Assembly (NCBI GenBank): GCA_945639195.1
Contig: CALZEE010000005.1
Span: 62,001 to 126,000, forward strand
DNA: 64,000 nt
Origin: an uncultured Ignatzschineria sp.
GTDB lineage: Bacteria > Pseudomonadota > Gammaproteobacteria > Cardiobacteriales > Wohlfahrtiimonadaceae
Direction of reading: 5' to 3'
Every line of letters begins with the position of its first letter. Within the stretch, counting starts at the first letter, position 1. Made by a program: the position numbers and the translations under genes. Of this stretch, positions 19,372 to 20,801 are shown in pieces. The notes below the pieces were generated by a model, which searched no databases, had not been told where the DNA came from, and worked only from the letters and a program-made list of their open reading frames with translations.

Positions 19372-20097
19372 CTAAGCAATCACGCTCGTTAATACTTTAA
19401 TCTGCTCAGCGGTGATCTGCTTAATACCAATCTCTGCAAGATCAAGCATCGAAAGAAGCTCACGCTTATCAAATGCTGCTTGCTCTGCTGTTGCTTGTAC
19501 TTCAATGATTTTGCCTTCACTGGTCATAATCACGTTCATATCCGTATCGGCATTACTATCTTCATCATAATCAAGATCAAGCACTGGCGTTCCTTGATAA
19601 ATCCCGACTGAGATCGCTGCAATTTGACTGGTAAGGGGCGACTTTGGTAATGCGCCTGATTCTACCAATTTATGCAGTGCAATCACCAATGCAATATAAG
19701 CCCCCGAGATAGACGCCGTTCTTGTCCCCCCATCTGCTTGTAACACATCACAGTCAATCGTGATTGTTCTCTCTCCGAGAAGTTCTAAATCAATCGCAGC
19801 ACGAAGCGAACGACCAATGAGGCGTTGAATTTCGAGGGTTCTACCGCTCTGTTTACCACGCGCAGCTTCACGATTAGATCTTGTATGGGTTGAGCCCGGA
19901 AGCATACCATATTCAGCCGTTACCCAGCCTTTTCCAGCGCCACGTAAGAATGATGGTACACGCTCTTCAACAGAAGCGGTACAGAGGACCTTTGTATTAC
20001 CAAATACTGCTAAAACAGAGCCAGCAGCATGCATTGTAAAGTTAGGAATAAATTGTAATGTGCGCATCTCATCTGCGGCTCTTTTGGAGGGTCTCAT
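19372..20097 (-). CDS. rph: Ribonuclease PH
   Basis: RNase PH is a phosphate-dependent 3' exoribonuclease that trims tRNA precursors. The start [20 protein letters not shown], the tRNA-binding loop region [20 protein letters not shown] and the phosphate-site [23 protein letters not shown] are characteristic. The length of 241 residues is close to the family norm (238). It is intact, unlike the frameshifted rph of E. coli K-12. It is convergent with dxs and is preceded by a non-coding stretch containing the candidate small RNA at 20235-20353. Confidence 0.96.
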
Positions 20098-20234
20098 CGT
20101 CTCTTCTCTCTTATTTAAGTAGTGATATGTAATATTCGGTTTAATATTGGCTTAGTTATAGGCTAAGTATGGGTTAATGAGGCTTTGTAACTGGCTTTTG
20201 CAAGTAAAGCCTCATCTTCTGAATCCCCCAGATA

Positions 20235-20260
20235 CAAAAACGCCCGTTTTAATACGGGCG
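20235..20260 (-). terminator. Terminator of the infA/sRNA region
   Basis: Stem CGCCCGT/ACGGGCG with a six-base loop, followed on the minus strand by five T. Confidence 0.85.
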
Positions 20261-20353
20261 CCTTTTCTAGTCCAAGACTAGCGCTCTTGTAAGAGCTATA
20301 AATTTTATTGCGAATAGATAGAGTATCTATTGAGCTTCTTTAGATTTAAGGTG
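20235..20353 (-). ncRNA. Candidate small stable RNA between infA and rph
   Basis: A strong promoter (see 20360-20388) would start transcription near 20353. The downstream 120 nt fold, in transcription order, into four short perfect hairpins. They are ATAGATA/TATCTAT (20314-20330), GCTCTT/AAGAGC (20283-20296), CTAGTC/GACTAG (20267-20281) and CGCCCGT/ACGGGCG (20241-20260), the last followed by TTTTTGT as a terminator. No open frame with a ribosome binding site lies in it. It does not match 4.5S, 6S, 5S, tmRNA or RNase P signatures that I know. Alternative: merely a multi-hairpin infA terminator. Confidence 0.55.
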
Positions 20354-20359
20354 TCGCGC

Positions 20360-20388
20360 ACTATAGCAATGTAGAAAATTGGGATCAA
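20360..20388 (-). promoter_or_regulatory. Promoter of the candidate small RNA
   Basis: On the minus strand TTGATC (-35) is followed after exactly 17 bases by TATAGT (-10). The stretch just downstream of the -10 is GCGCG, a GC-rich discriminator of the kind found at stringently controlled stable-RNA promoters. Confidence 0.6.
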
Positions 20389-20473: not shown

Positions 20474-20692
20474 CTATTTACCACGATAGACAATACGGCC
20501 TTTTGATAAGTCGTAAGGTGTTAATTCTACTTTAACTCTATCACCCATAAGAATGCGGATGTAGTTCTTACGCATCTTACCGGAAATATGAGCAGTGATA
20601 ACGTGACCGTTATCTAACTCTACTCTAAATTGTGTATAAGGAAGGGTCTCTGTGACCGTGCCTTCCATTTCAATATGATCTTCTTTTGACAT
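20474..20692 (-). CDS. infA: Translation initiation factor IF-1
   Basis: IF-1 is the small OB-fold factor that occupies the ribosomal A site during initiation. The 72 residues start at [20 protein letters not shown] (ATG at 20692) and include the conserved [21 protein letters not shown] longer open frame upstream crosses the tRNA-Pro gene and is not real. The gene sits 32 bp downstream of tRNA-Pro with no own promoter visible, so tRNA and infA appear to be co-transcribed. Confidence 0.97.
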
Positions 20693-20724: not shown

Positions 20725-20801
20725 TGGTCGGGACAGCAGGATTTGAACCTGCGACCCCTTGCACCCCATGCAAGTGCGCTACCAGGCTGCGCCATGCCCC
20801 G
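20725..20801 (-). tRNA. tRNA-Pro (anticodon GGG)
   Basis: A 77-nt cloverleaf with acceptor CGGGGCA/TGTCCCG, anticodon loop ATGGGGT (GGG) and an encoded CCA. It lies immediately upstream of infA. Confidence 0.97.

Follow-up and report, generated by a model that had tools for sequence, protein, structure and literature searches.

A sigma-70-like promoter and three hairpins ahead of the conserved infA terminator in a single Ignatzschineria species: a candidate small RNA unit

Results

The infA-rph intergenic region

The window, that is, the whole 64-kb stretch of DNA that was analysed, carries tRNA-Pro, infA, and rph in that order on its minus strand, with a 376-nt intergenic gap between infA and rph. 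The features of this locus are as follows.

20725 to 20801, minus strand: tRNA-Pro(GGG), found with ARAGORN; first gene of an apparent tRNA-Pro-infA transcript
20474 to 20692, minus strand: infA, encoding IF-1 (translation initiation factor), 72 aa, from ORF reading; the candidate sits in its 3′ UTR
20360 to 20388, minus strand: sigma-70-like promoter TTGATC-17-TATAGT with an extended -10 (TGC) and a GCGCG discriminator, from a position weight matrix (PWM) scan; present in this species only
20235 to 20353, minus strand: predicted transcript of ~117 nt, starting near 20353 and ending in a T-run, deduced from the promoter and terminator
20313 to 20331, minus strand: hairpin 1, AATAGATA-CTC-TATCTATT, perfect stem
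20283 to 20296, minus strand: hairpin 2, GCTCT-TACA-AGAGC, perfect stem
20267 to 20281, minus strand: hairpin 3, CTAGTC-TTG-GACTAG, perfect stem
20236 to 20265, minus strand: intrinsic terminator, CGCCCGT-loop-ACGGGCG followed by TTTTT; kept in nine of nine genus genomes
19372 to 20097, minus strand: rph (RNase PH), the downstream gene, from ORF reading

The order tRNA-Pro-infA-rph is kept in all eight congeners, and rph follows infA in the same direction in every one of them. IF-1 is 97 to 100% identical in the congeners and 94% and 81% identical in two other genera. Some further features of the surroundings were observed. The terminator-rph stretch is 138 nt long here (20098-20235), where six of the eight congeners have 46 to 71 nt, and contains a long inverted repeat, ATGAGGCTTT...AAAGCCTCAT, of which a second copy was not found in this genome. 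Between rph and the convergent dxs gene, the segment 19251-19350 contains a very strong inverted repeat (z of about -7 on both strands), which is probably a bidirectional terminator. In a genome from another genus of the same family (G011), an extra ORF, HAD-phosphatase-like by eye, apparently lies between infA and rph, and a GCCCG/CGGGC-type terminator was not found at that infA-rph locus.

A promoter-like site downstream of infA

The initial annotation placed a TTGATC-N17-TATAGT promoter with a GCGCG discriminator in this gap, and both its coordinates and its letters are correct on the minus strand: the -35 hexamer occupies 20388-20383, the -10 hexamer occupies 20365-20360, and the spacer is 17 nt. 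A TG sits one base 5′ of the -10 hexamer, and GCGCGA follows directly after it. When both strands of the 64-kb window were scanned with a PWM, this site ranked fifth of the 126 sites scoring at least 8, many of which are within ORFs; the three top-ranking sites were the promoters of tRNA-Tyr, tRNA-Ala/Glu, and tRNA-Pro. The matrix was built from textbook E. coli frequencies, and its scores are therefore relative only. Shuffling the infA-terminator interval 200 times yielded no equally good site.

The annotation further held that the same promoter geometry precedes three tRNA transcripts and that the discriminator points to ppGpp/DksA-controlled, growth-linked expression. The likeness extends to the hexamers and the 16- to 17-nt spacing but not to the discriminator. 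The candidate has a GC-rich discriminator, GCGCG (20355-20359), as a ppGpp/DksA-type promoter would, and GCGCG after the -10 resembles stringently controlled promoters, whereas the discriminators of the tRNA promoters (GATGACTT, ACAACTCC, TTAAACCT, and ATCACCCT) are AT-rich or mixed. Nothing beyond this discriminator speaks for ppGpp/DksA control, and growth-rate control of the candidate promoter is thus not supported. A 16S rRNA gene, looked for because rRNA promoters would serve as a discriminator control, was not found in the 2.45-Mb assembly (19 contigs, 99% complete by markers), likely because rRNA operons are collapsed or stretches are missing from the searched assembly.

The segment 20351-20450, upstream of and across the promoter, folds strongly on the minus strand (z of -4.2), and an imperfect dyad in it, GCGACGCTAT/ATAGTGCGC, takes in the -10 hexamer. 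This dyad could be an operator or could be due to chance.

Three perfect hairpins and a terminator

The four perfect hairpins in under 100 nt that the annotation described, the last one a terminator, are confirmed as three hairpins plus an intrinsic terminator, which together span less than 100 nt. Such a count of perfect hairpins, the terminator included, is rare in shuffled sequence (P = 0.002). For the three non-terminator hairpins in 90 nt, dinucleotide shuffles gave P = 0.01 by count and P = 0.0007 by summed pairs, and away from the locus, none of 851 overlapping 90-nt windows of intergenic DNA had at least three hairpins with as many pairs. The fold energy of the three pre-terminator hairpins alone is modestly low (z of -1.7 to -2.3), near the lower-quartile value for intergenic windows (z of -1.7); the whole stretch has a z of -4.3, which is largely due to the terminator. 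The U-run of the terminator consists of five U followed by G, which is shorter than usual in Hfq-bound sRNAs. Hfq is encoded in this genome. The unpaired 5′ end of the predicted RNA is CACCUUAAAUCUAAAG.

As the annotation had stated, no frame or known RNA family fits this region. The sole short minus-strand frame begins with the TTG in the -35 hexamer, 5′ of the predicted start, and attenuation by a leader peptide was rejected for want of a suitable ORF. No Rfam family reached threshold at either gathering or relaxed settings; the best subthreshold match, STnc430, scored 18.6 bits compared to the 47 needed and was centred on the terminator. The candidate is not 6S RNA, which is located elsewhere in this genome, and a mobile repeat was rejected because no further copies were found in the genome itself, plasmids, or phages. 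A blastn search with 176 nt against 57 genomes matched this genome alone, and a search of the literature found no paper linking an sRNA to infA and rph.

Comparison with relatives

The locus was compared with eight congeners (G001 to G008) and nine further genomes from the family. A terminator of the GCCCG/CGGGC type lies 140 to 267 nt past the infA stop codon in all nine genus genomes, including all eight congeners, where the 3′ end of infA would be expected, and was not found at three infA loci read in other genera. The sequence ahead of it follows a different course: the stretch from the infA stop to the terminator matched none of the congeners (Smith-Waterman z of -0.5 to 2.3), and no promoter-like site in their infA-terminator intervals scored above 7.7, compared to 11.1 here. 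Controls run by comparable methods behaved as they should. The region upstream of tRNA-Pro aligned in all congeners (z of 13 to 21), the tRNA-Pro promoter TTGTCA-17-TAATAT or its equivalent was found at equal distance in nine of nine genus genomes, and the 6S RNA of this genome recovered its counterpart in all eight congeners at 84 to 93% identity. The failure of the interval to align, together with the working controls, therefore points to a rapidly evolving 3′ UTR in which the terminator is fixed, and to a promoter gained in this lineage; loss of the promoter in all other lineages would be less economical.

Conservation of the stems in relatives, proposed as a check on the candidate, was not borne out: promoter and stems were found in 0 of 8 congeners and the stems in 0 of the 9 other family genomes. 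Searched against the 17 other family genomes, a covariance model built on the three stems found none at an E value of ≤1, and its best congener matches fall on the terminators of those genomes. Because of its fast evolution, the interval aligns only between close pairs, and a diverged homologue could therefore be missed.

One such close pair is formed by G008 (L003:2272-2392, minus strand) and G004 (L004:1339-1458, plus strand), in which ~90 nt before the infA terminator is conserved and structured. Two hairpins lie within an apparent outer helix, TCTGG/CCAGA, two predicted hairpin pairs are changed on both sides with pairing kept (in two sequences only), and the fold energy before the terminator is low in both (z of -2.5 for G008 and -2.8 for G004). 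This stretch is possibly a 3′-UTR RNA element of that congener pair. Homology of the candidate to it was rejected, as the G008/G004 covariance model reaches this genome at just 15.9 bits, a score explicable by the terminator. The structure kept in this pair means that, across the genus, the infA 3′ UTR may have some structural role while diverging too fast for the methods used.

Discussion

The reading that we favour, with moderate confidence, is that this region is the 3′ UTR of infA with its genus-conserved terminator, to which a promoter has been added in this species alone. The apparent tRNA-Pro-infA transcript would end at the terminator common to the genus, and a strong sigma-70-type promoter would have been gained ~100 nt before it. 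If this promoter is active, the primary RNA would be ~117 nt long, would comprise the three hairpins and the terminator shared with infA, and would offer its unpaired 5′ end, CACCUUAAAUCUAAAG, as the natural pairing region. Judged from the sequence elements, the promoter may fire and the RNA may accumulate. Of the "stable small RNA" in the initial annotation, what stands is a promoter-to-terminator unit able to make such an RNA; "stable" finds no support, and the stems are not conserved. Because only the terminator is common to the sister species, there is no sign in the sequence that the predicted RNA is an established gene. A selected regulatory function of the RNA is not supported, and, given the lack of conservation, the unit as a whole could be neutral. 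The unit does sit as 3′-UTR-nested sRNAs do, downstream of the infA ORF on the same strand and ending at the infA terminator. A stronger version, in which promoter gain upstream of the genus-wide terminator made the infA 3′ UTR independent as a recently born sRNA gene, strikes us as fairly unlikely. Were it true, with a promoter gained 5′ of a terminator that the whole genus has, the origin of the gene could be dated by comparison with the eight sister species, in which synteny is intact.

The main rival is that the promoter serves rph, the hairpins and terminator then forming a 5′ leader that allows partial read-through and is possibly an attenuator. We regard this as somewhat unlikely. The 138 nt between terminator and rph contains no promoter-like site in this species (best PWM score, 3.8), which is why the upstream promoter may serve rph; rph lies downstream in the same orientation in all congeners, and the 46 to 71 nt that separate it from the terminator in six of the eight leave little room for another promoter. 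However, relatives without this promoter must still express rph. The terminator also appears complete and is retained in both the MFE and centroid folds, and neither a suitable leader peptide nor an alternative antiterminator fold was seen.

Rather improbable, in our judgment, is that nothing but the 3′ end of infA lies here, with a fortuitous promoter match, fortuitous hairpins, and no separate RNA. Conservation of the terminator alone, with promoter and stems missing in relatives, is what this would predict, and sites scoring at least 8 are common in the window (126), many of them in ORFs. Against this, only four sites in the window score higher, no shuffle of the interval gave one as good, and at least three hairpins with this many pairs occur in no intergenic window elsewhere. 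A trans-acting sRNA gene that is conserved, selected, and under growth-linked (ppGpp/DksA) control is very improbable. The GC-rich discriminator, the strength of the promoter by PWM rank, and the presence of Hfq in the genome would be consistent with it, but homologues of the stems were found in 0 of 17 other family genomes, compared to 6S RNA in nine of nine of the genus, and the discriminator is unlike those of the tRNA promoters.

The closest known system to the infA 3′-UTR unit is ArgX of Lactococcus lactis, a 66-nt sRNA located in a 3′ UTR, with a proven promoter of its own and use of the argR terminator (PMC6586332). In both cases, a short same-strand RNA unit lies just past a gene, has a good -10 box, shares the terminator of the upstream mRNA, and lacks homologues beyond a narrow group. 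This likeness is one of anatomy, and no sequence relation is claimed. For ArgX, a mapped 5′ end, a mutant of the -10 box, Northern blots, and a target were reported (PMC6586332), whereas the unit here is predicted from sequence; ArgX is also kept among strains of its species, whereas this unit was seen in one genome. The DapZ-type 3′-UTR sRNAs of Salmonella (named in PMC6586332) likewise have a promoter near the end of the mRNA and share its terminator, but their promoter lies in the end of the ORF, compared to ~85 nt past the stop codon here. The region also resembles an ordinary 3′ UTR with an intrinsic terminator, in that the terminator follows infA at 140 to 267 nt in all congeners and the intervening sequence is free to vary; it differs from one in the strong promoter and the unusual run of perfect hairpins in this species.

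If the promoter is inactive, this would be an ordinary 3′ UTR, and a promoter, hairpins, and a terminator in a single genome would have to be seen as weak evidence for an sRNA gene. If it is active, the locus would be a clean case of an sRNA arising in a 3′ UTR, with nine species sharing the same gene order and terminator and one having the promoter.
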